A DNA stretch of 64,000 nucleotides from Cytophagales bacterium. Lineage in GTDB: Bacteria; Bacteroidota; Bacteroidia; Cytophagales; Thermoflexibacteraceae. Shown piece after piece: positions 21,411 through 29,211 of the stretch (positions are counted from its first letter, which is position 1; each line of letters opens with the position of its first letter). The notes below the pieces were generated by a model, which was not told where the DNA came from, did not search any database, and saw only the letters and a list, made by a program, of their open reading frames with translations. The DNA lies in NCBI GenBank assembly GCA_004294445.1, contig REAZ01000006.1, positions 1 through 64,000 on the forward strand, written 5' to 3'. A program made the translations under genes and the position numbers.

Positions 21411-22583
21411 CTATGGAGAAGGCTTCAGCCAATTTTCTGCCTTATCATAGAGGAGTGCGAATAGATTACGATTTGTAATTACAAATCTTGCTTTGACGGT
21501 CATACCTTTTTTCAAATAACCTTTATAACTATTTTTCAAAGAAAGAAAAGACTGGTCTAATTTGCACTTTATTAAGAAAAGAGGTTGGTTATTCACTATG
21601 CTTATGTCATTACTTACAGATTGGATTTCGCCGCTCATCATTCCCCATTCATTGTAATTGAACGCATCTATTTGAAAATTTGCTTTCATTCCTTTTTGTA
21701 ATAAGCCAATGTCTTTGGGCGAAACATAGCAGTCTGCGACCAGACTCGAATCAGGGGAAATAGAGGCTATAGATTCACCTACCTGCACTTGGTTTCCAAT
21801 ATATTTGCCTACAAACTGCTGAACTGTACCCGAAATTGGGGCAGTAATGGTATAAAATTCTTTTTCCTTATTGGCTTGCTTTTGCTGTGATTGTAAGCCT
21901 TCTATCTCGATTTGTAAGTTAGAAAGTTCGGATTGCCAAAGGCTAATTTGTTTTTCAAAAGACGTTTGAAATTGACTTTGAAGACGTTGTAACTCAAAAA
22001 GGCGGTCTTCATATTCCCTAAGAGCTATTGCCTTACCCTCATAGAGTTTTTTATCTCTACCAATTTCCCTTTGTATTTTTTCTTGAGCATACTGATTTTC
22101 TTGTAGTTGTGTTTTAAGCTGTAAGTATTGTTGCTTATAGAGCTGCGTTTTTAGTCCCAACTGCTGTCCTTTTCCAAAGGAGAAAATAACATTAGAGTCT
22201 ATTTTTACCAAATATTCCAAATCCTGAATATAGCTTTTCTTTTCAGTTAGCTGAAAATCAATTAGTTTTAGTTTATTATCCAAAATTTCGCTTTCCAAGA
22301 TGATTATTTTTTCACCTTGTTTTACTGTTTGATTTTCTTTGATATAGATTTCTTTGATTTTCCCATTTACTGCTGCTTTGAGTTCTGTTTTTTCCGTAAT
22401 AGGTCTTAAAATGCCGCTCGCCCGCACCGAAACATCTATGTGAATAAAAAATAAAGATACAAAAGCAGCCAACAGAGCAAGCAATAAAAAGGTATAAATC
22501 CATTGACTACGCATAGAAACCTGATAATGATGGCTTTCTACACTATTTTCTATGATTTCAGTAGGAAAAAGTTGAGTTTGCAT
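21411..22583 (-). CDS. HlyD-family secretion adaptor for the peptide exporter
   Basis: 390 aa. A short cytoplasmic N-terminus and one transmembrane helix (about 28-50) precede a lipoyl half motif (LKAAVNGKIKEIYIKENQTVKQGEKIIIL), a long coiled coil (about 105-230), a second lipoyl half (ITAPISGTVQQFVGKYIGNQVQVGE) and a barrel. This is the adaptor type that pairs with C39-peptidase ABC exporters (24652-26835). No outer-membrane channel gene is in the island. The gene has its own copy of the island promoter (22711-22746) and a hairpin in the leader. Confidence 0.9.
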   Translation of the reverse strand: MQTQLFPTEIIENSVESHHYQVSMRSQWIYTFLLLALLAAFVSLFFIHIDVSVRASGILRPITEKTELKAAVNGKIKEIYIKENQTVKQGEKIIILESEILDNKLKLIDFQLTEKKSYIQDLEYLVKIDSNVIFSFGKGQQLGLKTQLYKQQYLQLKTQLQENQYAQEKIQREIGRDKKLYEGKAIALREYEDRLFELQRLQSQFQTSFEKQISLWQSELSNLQIEIEGLQSQQKQANKEKEFYTITAPISGTVQQFVGKYIGNQVQVGESIASISPDSSLVADCYVSPKDIGLLQKGMKANFQIDAFNYNEWGMMSGEIQSVSNDISIVNNQPLFLIKCKLDQSFLSLKNSYKGYLKKGMTVKARFVITNRNLFALLYDKAENWLKPSP

Positions 22584-22798: not shown

Positions 22799-23233
22799 CT
22801 ATTTGATAGATTTTTGCAACAAATTATAAAACAATACATGATAAACAGATAAGGTGGTAAACATCAGCCCTAACATAGTGAGATTGAAATATCCGATATT
22901 CTTTAAATCGCTGATAACTAATGCAAATTCTATTAAAAGTAATAGCAAGTAAAGCCCAAAAGCGGCAAATAAAGCATAAAAAGCCACTTTCTGCCTTAGC
23001 CTATTTACCTGCTCATTTTCAATTTTTTCCTTGCAAAATACCAATAATACCAAAAGTAGATTTATGACGAAAAAACAAACTTCATTTGTTTTCAAATTAC
23101 CAATTTTTATATCATTGATAATCACGTAAATAAACACAGACAAAAATAATATGATGAATAGAAATATTATTTTTTTATAACTATTTGATAGATTAATTGG
23201 AGTCATATTTATTATAAATTGTAGGAAAATCAT
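22799..23233 (-). CDS. Small multi-pass membrane protein of the peptide island
   Basis: 144 aa with four predicted hydrophobic segments (about 22-40, 52-68, 84-104, 115-135). No family recognised. Its start overlaps the end of the CPBP-like gene by 4 bases (ATGA type), so it is translationally coupled in the same operon. An in-frame ATG ten codons later (23206) is also possible. In peptide-bacteriocin loci such small membrane proteins are often immunity factors; that role here is inferred from position only. Confidence 0.7.
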   Translation of the reverse strand: MIFLQFIINMTPINLSNSYKKIIFLFIILFLSVFIYVIINDIKIGNLKTNEVCFFVINLLLVLLVFCKEKIENEQVNRLRQKVAFYALFAAFGLYLLLLLIEFALVISDLKNIGYFNLTMLGLMFTTLSVYHVLFYNLLQKSIK

Positions 23234-23769
23234 TCAGAAGTCAAAATTAGAGTTGCAACTAAATTATGTAAGCTATGAATAATTGCTATAAGCCAGAATA
23301 TAGGGAATTTTTCATGTTGTTTGATTATGTAGGCATACGCATAATAAAATCCAACTAAAAATGAAACTAAAATATATCTCAAACTATAAATATGAGTGGA
23401 AGCAAATAAGCAGGCAGAAATAATGATGATAGCTAATGGTAATTTTTGCAAAATTTTAATTTTTTGTAGAATATTAATAATTAGATACTGGAATAGAAAG
23501 GTTTCTATCAAGGGTGCAATTAGTCCTGTTATTAATAATCGTCTATAAAGCGGTAGTTTGGATAAATAAGACTCTTCAAAGCTATTATCTTCTAATCCAA
23601 TAGCATCTAAAATATGTACTAAAATGTAAGGAACACATAAAGTATAAATCAAAGAAAAGCAGATAAATAAAATTAGTGGGACAGTTTTGATTTTATTATG
23701 TATGTTTTCTAAGTAATAAATGATACTATTCTTTATTTTTATGTTATAGATTTGCATGATTTTAAACAT
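23230..23769 (-). CDS. CPBP-family intramembrane protease-like protein
   Basis: 179 aa, several transmembrane helices. The three CPBP/Abi motifs can be traced: motif 1 is IETFLFQ (Glu89-Thr90, Gln94, where the family has EExxxR), motif 2 is FASTH (Phe122, His126) and motif 3 is HSLHN (His165, Asn169). The second Glu and the Arg of motif 1 are replaced, so catalysis may be altered. CPBP proteins in bacteriocin loci can confer immunity or process peptides. It is in an overlapping operon with the 89-aa-type gene upstream and the 144-aa gene downstream. The start could also be the ATG at 23757. Confidence 0.78.
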   Translation of the reverse strand: MFKIMQIYNIKIKNSIIYYLENIHNKIKTVPLILFICFSLIYTLCVPYILVHILDAIGLEDNSFEESYLSKLPLYRRLLITGLIAPLIETFLFQYLIINILQKIKILQKLPLAIIIISACLFASTHIYSLRYILVSFLVGFYYAYAYIIKQHEKFPIFWLIAIIHSLHNLVATLILTSE

Positions 23770-23995
23770 TTAAGTTTTTGTTTTTTCGCTTTTTAATGAA
23801 GCAAATAATAAATAGAAACGAAAATGGTATAGAGAATAAAAAGCGATACCAAAAGCCTTTGCTTATATGATAAGCAAAACCTTGAAAATTATCACTATAA
23901 ATTAATATGATAATATTACAAAACTCAAATAATATACTTCCTATGAAGGCACCTATGATAGTATATACAAATAAAAGAAGATACTTTTTTTTCAT
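23762..23995 (-). CDS. Small two-helix membrane protein of the peptide island
   Basis: 77 aa from the ATG at 23995 (MKKKYLLLFVYTIIGA). A longer frame from 24031 would begin inside the terminator hairpin 24016-24048 and is less likely. Two hydrophobic segments are separated by a short loop, with a very basic C-terminus (KKRKNKN). It overlaps the CPBP-like gene by 8 bases. Not recognised; a candidate immunity protein for the peptides encoded directly upstream. Confidence 0.6.
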   Translation of the reverse strand: MKKKYLLLFVYTIIGAFIGSILFEFCNIIILIYSDNFQGFAYHISKGFWYRFLFSIPFSFLFIICFIKKRKNKNLNV

Positions 23996-24015
23996 AAATA
24001 ATTTTTTTATTAAAA

Positions 24016-24048
24016 TTTGAAGCCTTACCAATCTAATAAGGCTTCAAA
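24016..24048 (-). terminator. Terminator after the two GG-leader peptides
   Basis: A 12-bp perfect stem (TTTGAAGCCTTA, 24016-24027, with its complement at 24037-24048) has a 9-nt loop and a short T run on the minus strand. It lies between the peptide genes and the downstream membrane-protein genes, so it may set a high peptide-to-immunity expression ratio. Confidence 0.65.
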
Positions 24049-24067: not shown

Positions 24068-24277
24068 TTAATGATGTACTGTCAGCCATCCTCCTTGACC
24101 TTGAGCTATAGTTTGACCACAATAAGTAATAAAACTATCTATCTTTGCAGCAACAAAACCGCAAAACTCAAATACTGCTTTCGTTGCAGGTGAAGCCTCA
24201 CCTCCATTAATACGCTTCATTTCTTCAAAACTCAACTCTTTCACACTGAATTCCTCAAATTGATTCAAATGTTTCAT
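24068..24277 (-). CDS. Double-glycine leader secreted peptide 1 (bacteriocin-like)
   Basis: 69 aa. The leader FSVKELSFEEMKRINGG ends at Gly25-Gly26 and has the hydrophobic spacing (Leu15, Met20, Ile23) recognised by C39 peptidases. The predicted mature part is 43 residues with two Cys (39 and 53), which could form a disulfide, plus a Gly/Gln-rich segment near the end (GQGQGGW). It lies 45 bases downstream of the second peptide gene, so both share promoter 24600-24635. The exporter and adaptor genes flank them. Antibacterial or signalling activity is inferred, not shown. Confidence 0.8.
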   Translation of the reverse strand: MKHLNQFEEFSVKELSFEEMKRINGGEASPATKAVFEFCGFVAAKIDSFITYCGQTIAQGQGGWLTVHH

Positions 24278-24321: not shown

Positions 24322-24531
24322 TTAATAACGCTTTCCTAAATCCCAGCCTTCATTGAAAGCTTTTACACAGTCATTCCAATTATTGACAGCATCCCAAGCA
24401 AAATTTCCAATGATGCCTCCAACTGCAGCAGTAGCTATAAAAATAAGGGCAGGACTTCCCCCCTCTGTTTCTCTCATTTCCCCTTCGTTTAACTCCAAAA
24501 CGTCGTAGGAATCTAAGGTTAAATTTGTCAT
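24322..24531 (-). CDS. Double-glycine leader secreted peptide 2 (class IIb-like)
   Basis: 69 aa. The leader MTNLTLDSYDVLELNEGEM runs to Gly24-Gly25. The mature 44 residues start with a hydrophobic helix containing GGIIG (a GxxxG motif, Gly38 and Gly42) followed by FAWDAVNNW, reminiscent of two-peptide (class IIb) bacteriocins. The leader and upstream DNA are almost the same as those of the 56-aa peptide at 27499-27669, while the mature parts differ. It is first in its operon, 69 bases after the -7 element of promoter 24600-24635. Confidence 0.8.
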   Translation of the reverse strand: MTNLTLDSYDVLELNEGEMRETEGGSPALIFIATAAVGGIIGNFAWDAVNNWNDCVKAFNEGWDLGKRY

Positions 24532-24650
24532 TTTTTGTTACGATTTTAAAGTTTGATAAATAGTTTTGTTTTTGCACTCCTAACGTTATTTGTACCTTAC
24601 AAAGTTACGCCCCAGCCTTCCGAGAATTTCGGAAGAGAAAAAAATATTTT
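24468..24650. repeat. Leader-promoter cassette, copy 1
   Basis: About 185 bases covering the GG leader codons, 5' UTR and palindromic promoter are nearly identical to 27604-27786, with a few substitutions and single-base indels. Similarity fades at the mature-peptide codons. Confidence 0.8.
24600..24635 (-). promoter_or_regulatory. Island promoter 2 (peptides 1 and 2)
   Basis: The palindrome CTTCCGA-GAATT-TCGGAAG (24617-24635) lies 9 nt from CAAAGTTA (24600-24607), which is TAACTTTG on the minus strand. The spacer is identical to that of island promoter 3. Confidence 0.82.
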
Positions 24651-24651
24651 C

Positions 24652-26835
24652 TTAGTTTATCATCAAATCTGCCACAGGTGCAAACTGCTCCTGCCAAAGG
24701 TGATAATACTTTCCTTCCCTACTTAAAAGTTCTTGATGTGTACCTTCTTCTGCTAATTTCCCCTTTTCTAAGACGATAATTTTATCTGCATTTTTGACTG
24801 TACTCAACCTATGAGCAATGAGAATAATTGTTTTTTCTTGTTTTCGTAACTGCTTGATAGTATGCTGAATATATTTTTCTGAAATACTGTCCAAAGAAGA
24901 AGTAGCCTCGTCTAATATCAGTATTTCGGGCTTTCGGTACAATGCCCTTGCTATAGCTATTCGCTGCTGCTGCCCACCTGAAAGGTTTGCGCCTCTTTCG
25001 CCTATCTTGGTTTCAAAACCGTTAGGTAGTTGCTCTATCAGTTCCATAATTCCTGTAAGCTGGCAAATCTGGATAATGCGCTGCATATCAGGCTCAAAGT
25101 CGCCAATCGCTATGTTTTCTATGACCGAGCCGCTAAACAAATCTATTTTTTGGGGAACTACACTTACCGTTTGGCGCAGACTCGTATGGCTGATATGCCT
25201 GATATTATAGTTGCCAATATGAATACTACCACTTTGCAAGGGGTAGATATTTTGTAGTAAAGACATGAGGGTACTTTTGCCAGAGCCACTTTCGCCTACA
25301 ATGGCTGTAATCTTTCCTTTTGGGAAAATAAGGCTCAAATTATCAAATACTTGTACCCTTGACCCATACCGAAAACTTACATTTCTGAACTCAATATCGC
25401 CTATCAGGTCTGTAGTAAGCTGTACTTTATTAGTCGTTTCCTCTCTTTCCAAATCTATGATTTCAAACAAACGGTCTGCCGCAATCAGTGCATCTTGGAT
25501 AGTGCGGTTTATGCCTATCAGACTGCTTGCGGGAGAAGTAAAATAGCCAATAATGGCATAAAAAGAGAGTAACTCACCTGTAGTAATTACGTTATCAAGC
25601 ACAAAGTACGCACCCACCCACAAGATAATAATGGTAAAAATACGAGAAACAAACTCGGAAGCTGTGCCTGCATAGATACCACTTGTGCCAGATTGATAGA
25701 TAGTTCGCAATAGTTTGATGAAGCGGTCTTCTGTTTTGAGGTTAGCGTGGGTTTCTAAGCCAAAGCGTTTTACTGTACTCATGGCATTCAGAGACTCGAC
25801 CAACTGCGCCTCCAAATCTGCGGCATTCTCCATGAGCTTGCGCTGTACTTTTTTATTTACTTGGTTGATAGTGAAATAGATAAGTGCATAAAAAGGAATA
25901 ATAGCCAGCGTAACAAGTGCCAATTTCCAATAATAGGTAAACATCAGCGCAAAGGAAAAAAGCACAATAAACACATTCACCGCCAAGCTAATAGCTACTT
26001 CATTAATAAAAACTCGAATCTTGACCGCATCATTTACCCTTGAAATAATCTCGCCTACCCGCATCGTATCAAAAAACTGCTGTGGGAGTCGCAAAAGGTG
26101 CTTATAATATCCCAAAATCAGTTGTGCATCTATCTGCTGTCCTGTTTTTAAGGTAAAAATGCTTTTCATAGTTCCAATGAGTAGCTGCAAAAGCAATAAG
26201 ACTATCATCACCACACTCATCAGGTTCATCAAGTTGCGGTTCGCATCAGGAATCACATAATCTACCAACTTCTGCACATAAATAGAGGTAGAAAGCCCCA
26301 AAATGGTATAAAAAATAGCTCCCACCAATGCTTGGGTAAGTACGCTGCGGTGTGGGCGCAAGAGAAACCAAAAACGTGCATAGACAGACACTTTTTCATT
26401 GCTTTGCTCAAACTCCTCTTTGGGAAGTAGCAAAAGCAATACCCCTGTCCAAATTTTCGCAAAGTCTTCATGGCTTTCCTTGTGCATCTTGCCATCGGCA
26501 GGATCCATGTAGCGAACTTGCTTTTCGCTCACCTCATAGATGACTACATAGTGCTGTAGCTTCTGCTCCCCTATGATTACATGAGCTATAGTAGGTTTTG
26601 GCACTTTGAAAAGAGATTCCTTTGTTGCTTTTACGCCCTTTGCCTGAAAGCCCATCTTATCCGCTGCCTCTACTAAGCCCAAGACATTAGAGCCTCGCTT
26701 GTCCGTAGAGGCGTACTGCCGAATACGAGCAATAGGCAAGTACCGCTTATAGTGTGCTGATACAGAGGCAAGACAGGCTGCCCCGCAGTCGGTGATGTCG
26801 TGCTGTTTGATGAGGGTGGGGGATGTAAAACTCAT
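24652..26835 (-). CDS. Peptidase-containing ABC transporter (PCAT) for GG-leader peptides
   Basis: 727 aa from the ATG at 26835, one base past the stop of the LspA-like gene. The longer frame from 26925 adds 30 residues that overlap that gene. The N-terminal C39 peptidase is complete: Gln11, Cys17 (DITDCGAAC), His95 (LQHYVVIYEV) and Asp111. Six transmembrane helices (about 160-440) and an ABC domain follow, with Walker A (GESGSGKST), signature (LSGGQQQR) and Walker B (ILILDEATSSLD). It cleaves after the double glycine and exports the core peptide, together with the HlyD adaptor at 21411-22583 and an outer-membrane channel from elsewhere. Confidence 0.95.
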   Translation of the reverse strand: MSFTSPTLIKQHDITDCGAACLASVSAHYKRYLPIARIRQYASTDKRGSNVLGLVEAADKMGFQAKGVKATKESLFKVPKPTIAHVIIGEQKLQHYVVIYEVSEKQVRYMDPADGKMHKESHEDFAKIWTGVLLLLLPKEEFEQSNEKVSVYARFWFLLRPHRSVLTQALVGAIFYTILGLSTSIYVQKLVDYVIPDANRNLMNLMSVVMIVLLLLQLLIGTMKSIFTLKTGQQIDAQLILGYYKHLLRLPQQFFDTMRVGEIISRVNDAVKIRVFINEVAISLAVNVFIVLFSFALMFTYYWKLALVTLAIIPFYALIYFTINQVNKKVQRKLMENAADLEAQLVESLNAMSTVKRFGLETHANLKTEDRFIKLLRTIYQSGTSGIYAGTASEFVSRIFTIIILWVGAYFVLDNVITTGELLSFYAIIGYFTSPASSLIGINRTIQDALIAADRLFEIIDLEREETTNKVQLTTDLIGDIEFRNVSFRYGSRVQVFDNLSLIFPKGKITAIVGESGSGKSTLMSLLQNIYPLQSGSIHIGNYNIRHISHTSLRQTVSVVPQKIDLFSGSVIENIAIGDFEPDMQRIIQICQLTGIMELIEQLPNGFETKIGERGANLSGGQQQRIAIARALYRKPEILILDEATSSLDSISEKYIQHTIKQLRKQEKTIILIAHRLSTVKNADKIIVLEKGKLAEEGTHQELLSREGKYYHLWQEQFAPVADLMIN

Positions 26836-26836
26836 T

Positions 26837-27415
26837 CTATAATTGGCTTTTCTTATAATTTTTGCCAAATTTAACGCTGTAATATACAACGAAAGCAACC
26901 CCAATAAACATTGCCAAATCAGCAATATTAAAAATTGGGAAGATAGTAAAATAGCGACCTCCTAATTGGGCAACTTCTCCCTGCCAAATATTAATATGCA
27001 ACATATCAACTACTTGCCCATGTAAAAATAACATAGGCGCATTGGGAGAGGTAAGTCCAAACCAAAGCCCATAGAAAAAATTGTCTATTAAGTTCCCTAT
27101 TGCACCAGAAAAAGCAATAATGCAGGGCAATATAAATTCACTTCTATATTTTGTACGCACTTCATACCAATAATATGAGAATGCACCAATAACTAATAAT
27201 ACACGCATCAAATTTGATAAGAGTTTCCCATATTCCCCTTCTATAAGTGTAGTATTCATGGCAAAACCGTCATTTAGAATAAAGGTTATCTTAAATATTT
27301 CTCCCATTACTCTAAATTCTTCATTTATCTTAAAAAAGTGAACTATTAATATTTTGGAAATTTGGTCTATCAATACAATACTAATTATAATGAATAGGTT
27401 TTTTTTTTTGAGCAT
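26837..27415 (-). CDS. Signal peptidase II (LspA) homologue inside the peptide island
   Basis: 192 aa, four transmembrane helices. LspA landmarks are intact: Asp17-Gln18 and Lys21, GNLID (Asp111), the catalytic Asp137 in QVVDML and catalytic Asp166 in FNIAD. The insertion between GNLID and VVD is typical of Bacteroidota LspA. The gene is sandwiched between the 56-aa GG-leader peptide (with a lipobox) and the PCAT exporter, one base upstream of the latter. Either it matures that peptide or it is a self-protection copy of the LspA target. It could also be the only lspA of the genome; the window cannot tell. Confidence 0.87.
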   Translation of the reverse strand: MLKKKNLFIIISIVLIDQISKILIVHFFKINEEFRVMGEIFKITFILNDGFAMNTTLIEGEYGKLLSNLMRVLLVIGAFSYYWYEVRTKYRSEFILPCIIAFSGAIGNLIDNFFYGLWFGLTSPNAPMLFLHGQVVDMLHINIWQGEVAQLGGRYFTIFPIFNIADLAMFIGVAFVVYYSVKFGKNYKKSQL

Positions 27416-27436: not shown

Positions 27437-27468
27437 AACATAACCTCTTTTTTTGAAGAGGTTATGTT
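27437..27468 (-). terminator. Terminator or attenuator between peptide 3 and lspA
   Basis: A perfect 13-bp stem (AACATAACCTCTT, 27437-27449, with its complement at 27456-27468) has a 6-nt loop. No other promoter was seen before lspA, so partial read-through would set the level of LspA and exporter relative to the peptide. Confidence 0.7.
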
Positions 27469-27498: not shown

Positions 27499-27669
27499 TT
27501 ATGGTGCTGGAGGAACTTCCTCTTTTTTCTGACCGCCAGAACATGAAACAAGTGCAGCCAAACAGATAAGTCCAATAATAATCAGAGGTGCGATTCCTCC
27601 CTCTACATTCACCATTTCCCCTTCGTTCATCTCCTGAACGCCGTAGGAATCTAAGGTTAAATTTTTCAT
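27499..27669 (-). CDS. Double-glycine leader peptide 3 with lipobox
   Basis: 56 aa, short enough to be missed by routine calling. The leader (MKNLTLDSYGVQEMNEGEM, ending Gly24-Gly25) is almost the same as that of peptide 2, and the upstream 120 bases are duplicated too. The core differs sharply: a hydrophobic stretch (residues 26-42) leads into L-V-S-Cys43, a consensus lipobox, followed by a hydrophilic 13-residue tail (SGGQKKEEVPPAP). The core therefore looks like a lipoprotein signal plus minimal lipoprotein placed behind a PCAT leader. The next gene downstream is an lspA homologue. It is driven by island promoter 3. Confidence 0.78.
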   Translation of the reverse strand: MKNLTLDSYGVQEMNEGEMVNVEGGIAPLIIIGLICLAALVSCSGGQKKEEVPPAP

Positions 27670-27786
27670 TTTTTGTTACGATTTTAAAGTTTGATAAATA
27701 ATTTTGTTTTGCACTCCTAACGTTATTTGTACCCTACAAAGGTACGCCCCAGCCTTCCGTGAATTTCGGAAGAGAAAAAATATTTT
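27604..27786. repeat. Leader-promoter cassette, copy 2
   Basis: Counterpart of 24468-24650: the same leader codons, 5' UTR, 9-nt spacer and palindrome. Confidence 0.8.
27737..27772 (-). promoter_or_regulatory. Island promoter 3 (peptide 3, lspA, PCAT)
   Basis: The palindrome CTTCCGT-GAATT-TCGGAAG (27754-27772, one arm mismatch) lies 9 nt from CAAAGGTA (27737-27744), which is TACCTTTG on the minus strand. Confidence 0.82.
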
Positions 27787-27847: not shown

Positions 27848-28111
27848 TCAATGCTTTGCTGGGGGGGGGGCAGATTTATTCGCTTTCTTAAAGCCTATTT
27901 CTATCCTTCCCTCTTCGGTATAGATATAACTTTGGCGGATTGGGCAGTACGCTACGGGTGCGCCCATGTCCTTCATTCTTTCTATAAGTTCGTACAGCGT
28001 ACTTTTAGAAATTTCTAAGCGGTCTGCGGTTTTTTGATAGTTTCCTGTGCGCCCCTGCCTGATGAGTTGGTCAAATCGGGACACTCTATCTACAAATTCT
28101 GAAAAAGACAT
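27848..28111 (-). CDS. Small HTH DNA-binding protein, candidate island regulator
   Basis: 87 aa. Residues about 22-46 form a helix-turn-helix (GNYQKTADRLEISKSTLYELI), followed by a wing-like segment (VAYCPIRQSYIYT). No ligand or receiver domain is present. It is first in the island's transcription direction, and its own upstream region (28197-28232) has a weaker version of the island promoter, so it is the natural candidate for the protein that binds the palindrome. The codons for Ala81-Pro84 contain a run of ten C, a possible slippage site that would change only the C-terminal tail. Confidence 0.7.
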   Translation of the reverse strand: MSFSEFVDRVSRFDQLIRQGRTGNYQKTADRLEISKSTLYELIERMKDMGAPVAYCPIRQSYIYTEEGRIEIGFKKANKSAPPPAKH

Positions 28112-28239: not shown

Positions 28240-28473
28240 TTATTTTGCTGAATAATATCCCCCGTTCTGCATAGAACGAATGATTTGAGAGGCAGTAAAT
28301 TTTTTGAAATCTCTTAAAATATCACTTAAATTGAAGCCTTCTTTTGCCCTGATAATCAAATGAATGTGGTTGGTCTGGGCGGCACTCCGCATCAAGCAAA
28401 TAATTCCAAGTCTTTCGTTGCTTTTTAATTGGCAAAATAAATAGACTGCATAGAGTCGCTTCGCTAAAATCAA
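28240..28473 (-). pseudogene. Remnant of an IS200/REP-associated tyrosine transposase
   Basis: The 77-codon frame carries the HUH motif (TNHIHLII) and the downstream segment RAKEGFNLSDILRDFKKFTA seen in REP-associated (Y1) transposases. The N-terminal third, the catalytic Tyr region and the C-terminus are missing, and an extra RSAAQ stretch interrupts the segment before the HUH motif. It ends about 10 bases from the right 205-bp repeat, marking the island border. Confidence 0.72.
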
Positions 28474-28482
28474 CGCAGCACA

Positions 28483-28530
28483 AGAGCTACTTGGGTGCAG
28501 CCCAACAGAGCCTCAGATGATATTTTTTAA
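28483..28530 (+). pseudogene. 3' remnant of a second 145-aa-type gene
   Basis: In frame it reads RATWVQPNRASDDIF and a stop, against RATWVQPDKASDAFF and a stop in the intact gene at 20781-21218. The differences are conservative amino-acid changes, which suggests it comes from a homologue that evolved under selection. It overlaps the crtW stop by 18 bases, as in the left copy. Confidence 0.75.
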
Positions 28531-28687
28531 AATACCTTTTTCCTTTTCTTGCGGCAGCATCCACCAAGGCGTTCTCGGTGAGTTGTGATGCTCGTAGTGA
28601 TAGCCAAAAAAATAGCAAGTTAAGAAAGCCCAAAGATGATTCTGACGCTGACTATTTGACTTATGTATATTTTCGGGTGCGTGTTCC
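28483..28687. repeat. Right 205-bp direct repeat bounding the peptide island
   Basis: Ungapped match to 21171-21375. Here it is continuous with the complete crtW gene. Confidence 0.85.
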
Positions 28688-29211
28688 CCTTTATGAGGGA
28701 GATACGTGCCAAAATAAAATAGCTGAAAAGTTGAAATGATAGAAGGTAGCATCCAAAAGAGTATCACATTTTCTGTTGGAAATAATAGCTTTAAGGCATT
28801 ATAAGTAATAGCCATAAGAAGTATTTGCCACAGATTAATATATTGCTTGGCAAAACTTAAGTACCAAATCCAAAAGCCTCCCCCGTGATAGTCGGGGTCT
28901 TTGTCCGTACCTACAAAGCGGTGATGCTCGTAGTGCTTTTTCAGTAAGTTATCATAAAAATTGAAAGCAAAAATAGTAGCACAGATTCTCCCTATCCACG
29001 TATTTACTTTTTTGTTAGAAGAAACTACGCTGTGCATGGCATCGTGGGCGGTGATAAAAATGCCTGTATAAAGGTGCGACTGTAGCAAAATGAAAAAATA
29101 GGTAAGTGGCGAAAGAAAGCTAACAGAATAGCTCATTAGCAGAAAAGCCAAAGAAATTGACCACAAAGACATGATAAGTAGTGCTATATAGACTCCTCTA
29201 TTCCCTTTCAT
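28513..29211 (-). CDS. crtW: Beta-carotene ketolase (CrtW type)
   Basis: 232 aa membrane protein of the fatty-acid desaturase/hydroxylase superfamily. The three di-iron histidine boxes are HDAMH (56-60), HYEHH (93-97) and HYEHH (205-209). GTDKDPDYH after the second box, FGTYLPH, and the terminal FGYHYEHHNSPxTPWWxLP are characteristic of CrtW ketolases, which add 4-keto groups to carotenoid rings. Other desaturase-like enzymes are less likely given those signatures. It is followed closely upstream by a 136-aa gene on the same strand. Its 3' end is shared with the direct repeat of the peptide island. Confidence 0.82.
   Translation of the reverse strand: MKGNRGVYIALLIMSLWSISLAFLLMSYSVSFLSPLTYFFILLQSHLYTGIFITAHDAMHSVVSSNKKVNTWIGRICATIFAFNFYDNLLKKHYEHHRFVGTDKDPDYHGGGFWIWYLSFAKQYINLWQILLMAITYNALKLLFPTENVILFWMLPSIISTFQLFYFGTYLPHKGEHAPENIHKSNSQRQNHLWAFLTCYFFGYHYEHHNSPRTPWWMLPQEKEKGILKNII

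Follow-up and report, generated by a model that had tools for sequence, protein, structure and literature searches.

What becomes of a small ribosomal peptide in which a double-glycine (GG) leader, of the kind recognised by peptidase-containing ABC exporters (PCATs), is followed by the lipobox of a lipoprotein? Such a peptide was proposed in a preliminary description of the 64,000-nt stretch of Cytophagales DNA analysed here, referred to as a whole as the window. Its two suggested outcomes, lipidation following PCAT cleavage or a decoy role in the lipoprotein pathway, find partial support in the present analysis, and either may hold. At 27669..27499, the minus strand encodes a 56-aa precursor, the ORF translation of which reads MKNLTLDSYGVQEMNEGEMVNVEGG for the leader and IAPLIIIGLICLAALVSCSGGQKKEEVPPAP for the core, followed by a stop codon; the plus strand over 27499..27669 is closed, the preliminary description having named no strand. 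The gene belongs to a cluster lying entirely on the minus strand, in the order HTH-like regulator, GG-lipobox peptide, lspA, PCAT, two GG peptides, small membrane protein, CPBP protein, membrane protein, and HlyD. The features are the following:

27848..28111, minus strand: small HTH-like regulator, with homologues in 23 of the 45 related loci searched; candidate binder of the palindrome
27754..27772, no strand assigned: operator-like palindrome CTTCCG-N7-CGGAAG, just upstream of the -7 box (motif match)
27737..27744, minus strand: TAnnTTTG box TACCTTTG upstream of the GG-lipobox gene (sequence match)
27499..27669, minus strand: GG-lipobox precursor peptide gene, 56 aa; leader, residues 1-25, at 27669..27595; core, residues 26-56
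27543..27541, minus strand: codon of Cys43 in the lipobox ALVS-C, within the core
27437..27468, minus strand: hairpin with a perfect 13-bp stem between the peptide gene and lspA (z-score -3.83)
26837..27415, minus strand: accessory lspA, signal peptidase II, 192 aa, with catalytic Asp residues D137 and D166; long-branch paralogue
24652..26835, minus strand: PCAT, C39 peptidase and ABC exporter (PF03412, PF00664, and PF00005; TIGR01193 above cut-off)
24617..24635, no strand assigned: second copy of the palindrome, before the second GG gene; its TAACTTTG box is at 24607..24600
24322..24531, minus strand: second GG-leader peptide, with the 5' region and leader of the GG-lipobox gene and an unrelated core
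24068..24277, minus strand: third GG-leader peptide, with a different leader
23762..24031, minus strand: small membrane protein, candidate immunity protein (no Pfam match)
23230..23769, minus strand: CPBP/Rce1-like membrane protein, candidate immunity protein (Pfam, PF02517)
22799..23233, minus strand: membrane protein, 144 aa (no Pfam match)
21411..22583, minus strand: membrane fusion protein of the HlyD type, partnering the PCAT in the periplasm

The short ORF is credible because its DNA, over a stretch that starts about 117 bp before the ATG and takes in the leader, is almost the same as in the operon's second GG peptide gene (24531..24322). This similarity, with a local score of 157.5 versus a shuffled maximum of 26, ends at the cores, and a DNA search of the 62%-complete genome yielded no third strong copy. 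The duplication rules out a spurious or chance ORF, and the frame is, judging from its sequence, a real precursor of a presumably secreted peptide. Its leader, with six D/E and one K, displays the double glycine and the hydrophobic positions that place it in the GG/PCAT peptide family, and the cognate C39-ABC exporter is present in the cluster. The NCBIfam model for cerein 7B-type bacteriocins (TIGR03949), a class IIb bacteriocin family whose model takes in the leader, matches residues 12-46 at 30.9 bits (cut-off 21.5), while Pfam contains no family for the precursor.

The residues preceding Cys43 match the PROSITE prolipoprotein pattern, with LVSC fitting [LVI][ASTVI][GAS]C. With 47 predicted lipoproteins from the Bacteroidota DNA analysed, a small and rule-selected set, as training data for a position model, Cys43 scores 17.5, which, as a ranking and not a probability, puts it above all 47 training lipoproteins (median 7.7); it also exceeds all 2431 internal cysteines of long ORFs. 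The runner-up among 49 core cysteines from 32 GG peptides reaches 7.9. Mean hydropathy is +3.0 before Cys43 and -1.7 after it, i.e., the hydrophobic segment stops at the lipobox and gives way to a hydrophilic tail. The strict lipobox pattern is found in three of the 95 catalogued GG peptides, and this is the only one of the three with both a strongly hydrophobic stretch before the Cys and an extended hydrophilic tail. The occurrence of a GG leader and a lipobox in one 56-aa peptide, as first claimed, is thus real, given the TIGR03949 match, the PROSITE pattern, and the score of 17.5.

The full classical rule for lipoproteins, a Sec/SPII signal with a positively charged n-region and the Cys at about residues 15-35, accommodates neither form of the peptide, which falls outside the family by its n-region: in the full precursor, the Cys is at 43 (the limit being about 35) and the N-terminus is acidic, while the GG-cleaved core has its Cys at 18 but not a single Lys or Arg among its first seven residues. 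Searches with the peptide returned no match in plasmids and one in genome contigs, a Planctomycetota lipoprotein signal sharing LAALVSCSGG; it was rejected as a homologue, as only the lipobox is similar and the GG leader is absent. Across 59 relatives and 395 genomes of the phylum, no matching GG leader with a lipobox was found, the matches being GG leaders or unrelated, and nothing specific to this combination was found in the literature. As a separate observation, the GG-leader peptide of locus L229 (genome G1163; the same peptide as L199 1692-1856) has a lipobox-like end, GLAGCSD, whose cysteine scores 7.9, about the median of predicted lipoproteins; lspA is absent nearby.

The preliminary description had overlooked an accessory, catalytically complete lspA directly downstream, which adjoins the PCAT gene and strengthens the combination of GG leader and lipobox. 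This lspA is separated from the peptide gene by 83 bp and from the PCAT gene by 1 bp (lspA stop to PCAT start). Its product matches PF01252 (Peptidase_A8) at 95.6 bits (cut-off 25), as well as the solved LspA structures 6ryo, 9emz, and 5dir, and is an LspA by its catalytic Asp pair and its DQxxK, N-G, GNxxD, VVD, and FNxAD motifs. It keeps 13 of 14 strictly conserved LspA residues (list in PMC6952399); at the remaining position, an Arg, 71 of 74 other copies from Bacteroidota have Ser. A second, typical lspA on contig C34 of the same genome rules out that the cluster gene is the sole copy of the cell. The cluster LspA is divergent, with a long branch that joins only the orphan second LspA of genome G069, although both are listed as long branches of unsure placement and the join may be false; the two share G-F-A-M-N where G-M-A-F-G is usual. 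The G069 gene (L146, contig C109, 6049-6636, minus strand), itself a divergent second LspA with GFAMN, sits on a contig of 9.8 kb that gave no match to PCAT or HlyD. No close orthologue of the cluster lspA was found in 390 genomes of the order (best identity 39-41%), and a search of 153 phylum genomes at E 1e-33 recovered only the gene itself. For the second lspA genes of 22 other genomes, none of 15 regions from 8 genomes contained a full C39-type PCAT or HlyD match, and the four plasmid lspA contexts viewed were either housekeeping-like (ileS-dksA-lspA) or unrelated.

How far, then, does the arrangement recur? The PCAT marks a family of clusters in Bacteroidota, and the window was compared with 44 neighbourhoods of this phylum with PCAT and HlyD, some of them shortened by contig ends; CPBP proteins are found in 12 of the loci searched. 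The co-occurrence with lspA that had been suggested as a check holds for one case, this window, and for 0 of the 44 other clusters. Cysteine-less homologues, which the preliminary description would have counted against it, do exist: the closest core homologues, from genomes G1061 and G1240, read FWPLIIAGIIALAALVASKDVWVD and end LAALVASKDVWVD, with the helix kept and no Cys. The core alignment to them scores 51 versus a shuffled maximum of 37 in 2000, and PLIIxGxIxLAALV is retained. Since these homologues share the helix without the Cys, the helix is inherited, and the lipobox was either gained here or lost in G1061 and G1240. Their clusters are also devoid of lspA; this weighs against a conserved family, whereas a specialised variant at this locus would be compatible with it. 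Because the closest homologues, from two genomes, have neither Cys nor lspA, the lipobox is not conserved; what is observed is one co-occurrence with lspA and not a family, as the Cys and lspA do not recur. Lipobox and lspA are nonetheless jointly present in one cluster and jointly absent in its relatives, which is suggestive for a sample of one. By our own rough estimate, based on the three GG peptides that this cluster contributes to the 95 catalogued, the probability that lipobox peptide and lspA share a cluster by chance is about 3%. Separately, 16 GG-leader profile matches are scattered among many contigs of the 2.3-Mb genome G1159, in which GG peptides seem to have expanded.

The cluster also carries putative regulatory elements. 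The TAnnTTTG sequence is presumably a -7 type Bacteroidota promoter box. CTTCCG-N7-CGGAAG has two matches in the window versus 0.02 expected, and both precede GG-peptide genes; together with their -7 boxes (27737-27772 and 24600-24635), these palindromes are possibly the site of the HTH regulator of the cluster. The hairpin is a possible attenuator or RNA-stability element. Beside the cluster, a short frame at 28240-28473 (minus strand) resembles the end of an IS200/REP-associated transposase and is perhaps a mobile-element remnant, and 28513-29211 (minus strand) encodes a probable beta-carotene ketolase-like protein (NCBIfam CrtW, 238 bits, below the 350-bit cut-off).

Several known systems share part of these traits. 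The leader, C39-ABC exporter, HlyD, CPBP protein, and several short hydrophobic peptides are those of GG-leader class II bacteriocins and bacteroidetocin-like peptides, from which the locus departs by a core with a lipobox and a hydrophilic tail and by the lspA inserted beside the PCAT gene. With ordinary Bacteroidota lipoproteins, the peptide has in common the lipobox and a hydrophilic tail starting CSGG but, unlike them, it has a GG leader, no Lys/Arg n-region, and a mature part of only 14 residues; its acidic residues begin at +8, which is not where PMC5080379 places surface-export signals. DAG-RiPPs such as DybA are likewise small ribosomal peptides with a lipobox, matured by Lgt and LspA to a lipid-anchored peptide (PMC12636315). 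DybA differs in having an MNIO and a Sec/SPII signal of the classical, positively charged type, with no GG leader or PCAT mentioned (PMC12636315), while the lipobox here is preceded by a GG leader and the operon includes lspA. As no MNIO or other RiPP modifying enzyme was found among the cluster genes scanned, the peptide would at most work like a DAG-RiPP. Of note, the authors of the DAG-RiPP study expect lipidation mainly in RiPP pathways that are independent of a leader peptide (PMC12636315).

From the leader, the lipobox, the gene order, the intact catalytic residues, and an lspA unique to this cluster among those compared, all of which are observed, we infer the processing steps, lipidation, destination, and biological role of the peptide as follows. 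Our leading reading, held tentatively and at somewhat less than even confidence, is that the precursor is routed by its GG leader to the PCAT, and that its core would then acquire a lipid at Cys43 and be cleaved by the LspA of the cluster itself. The C39 domain of the PCAT would recognise the GG leader and cut after Gly25 while exporting or inserting the 31-residue core, which would be retained in the inner membrane by its hydrophobicity, with the lipobox at the outer face. Lgt would put diacylglycerol on Cys43, and the cluster LspA would cut before it, giving a short lipid-anchored CSGGQKKEEVPPAP and setting a hydrophobic fragment free. What the positively charged n-region and the Sec route do for an ordinary lipoprotein would thereby fall to the GG leader and PCAT, and the duplicated lspA could be a dedicated maturase. 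Direct Sec targeting of the full precursor is unlikely because of the acidic leader. Counting for this scheme are the position of lspA along with the separate typical copy in the genome, the conserved residues of its product, the top rank of Cys43, the change in hydropathy at the lipobox, the fact that the only cluster with lspA is the one with the lipobox peptide, and, by analogy, the existence of RiPP-lipoprotein hybrids in Bacteroidota (PMC12636315). Against it stand its single occurrence and the nearest homologues, which keep the helix without Cys or lspA, so that the hydrophobic segment may have evolved in some capacity other than that of a lipoprotein signal, as well as the lack of a Lys/Arg n-region in the GG-cleaved core. 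HlyD is also encoded in the cluster, and in PCAT-HlyD-TolC systems of the colicin V type the cargo bypasses the periplasm (PMC10352776), which would put the core beyond the reach of Lgt and LspA; the scheme must hence assume lateral release at the inner membrane, and topology is its weak point.

Could the peptide instead be aimed at LspA? In this alternative, which we regard as rather unlikely, a bacteriocin-like inhibitor would fill the active site of competitors' LspA with its Leu-Val-Ser-Cys lipobox, the adjoining lspA conferring self-resistance or immunity. An immunity gene usually lies directly downstream of the peptide gene, as lspA does here, and the clusters of the sister peptides are of the bacteriocin-like GG type and contain CPBP proteins. 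A peptide blocking LspA would, to our knowledge, have no ribosomal precedent, and its immunity gene would be its direct neighbour. The authors of PMC9943842 knew of just two natural LspA inhibitors, and both have lspA copies in their clusters, globF for globomycin and lspA3/lspA4 for myxovirescin, with self-resistance as the proposed role; a second lspA within a biosynthetic cluster is thus shared with the present locus, and the Leu-Val-Ser-Cys ending the core recalls the Leu-Ile-Ser of globomycin, thought to mimic the lipobox (PMC6952399). Globomycin and myxovirescin are, however, enzymatically assembled macrocycles and not ribosomal peptides with their own lipobox, and LspA inhibition by a linear, unlipidated lipobox peptide is not known. 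Such a peptide would also have to pass the outer membrane of the competitor, the Cys-less homologues of sister clusters would not act in this way, and the conserved active-site residues of the cluster LspA are unchanged, although this is also true of GlobF. Maturation is modestly preferred over inhibition in view of the intact catalytic residues of the cluster LspA and of a peptide that resembles a near-perfect substrate rather than a modified inhibitor.

Just as doubtful, in our judgment, is a more ordinary origin, in which a bacteriocin-like hydrophobic GG peptide would be exported intact by PCAT-HlyD, the lipobox being a by-product of a Cys-ended helix and lspA a passenger or a gene with another role. 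This would fit the Cys-less helix of the G1061 and G1240 homologues and a cluster type that is common, with 44 PCAT/HlyD loci without lspA; the L229 peptide, ending LAGCSD without lspA nearby, indicates that lipobox-like ends do arise, and the related accessory LspA of L146 lies on an unrelated contig without PCAT. It requires, however, two coincidences in one operon, namely the best lipobox among the catalogued GG peptides and the only lspA of these clusters, in genes that are adjacent, with lspA 1 bp from the PCAT gene. Enterococcal sex pheromones are made from lipoprotein signal peptides, and, with this precedent, the actual product might be the hydrophobic piece that LspA cuts off (IAPLIIIGLICLAALVS, whole or shortened), acting as a pheromone and perhaps trimmed by the CPBP membrane protein. 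Homologues do conserve the hydrophobic segment and not the tail, and the cluster has an HTH regulator and a shared palindrome, but no receptor or site-2 protease was identified, the CPBP proteins may be immunity proteins, and such a cut would be impossible in the homologues that have no lipobox, making this proposal very improbable.

Returning to lipidation of a PCAT-routed core, its broader form, a Sec-independent second entry to the lipoprotein pathway in which the PCAT removes the GG leader and hands a lipobox core to Lgt and a dedicated LspA to give a diacylated mini-lipopeptide, is possible, with about one chance in three in our estimation. The cell may thus make a fat-anchored peptide by an undescribed route, of which this locus is the one known example. 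A GG-leader, DAG-RiPP-like peptide with its own LspA would, if true, be a new variant beside the Sec-type DAG-RiPPs. Lipidation of the core after PCAT cleavage would mean that lipoproteins can do without a Sec-type signal peptide and that GG-leader peptides include a membrane-anchored class, one that is probably missed by current pipelines because lipoprotein predictors and bacteriocin finders expect something else.
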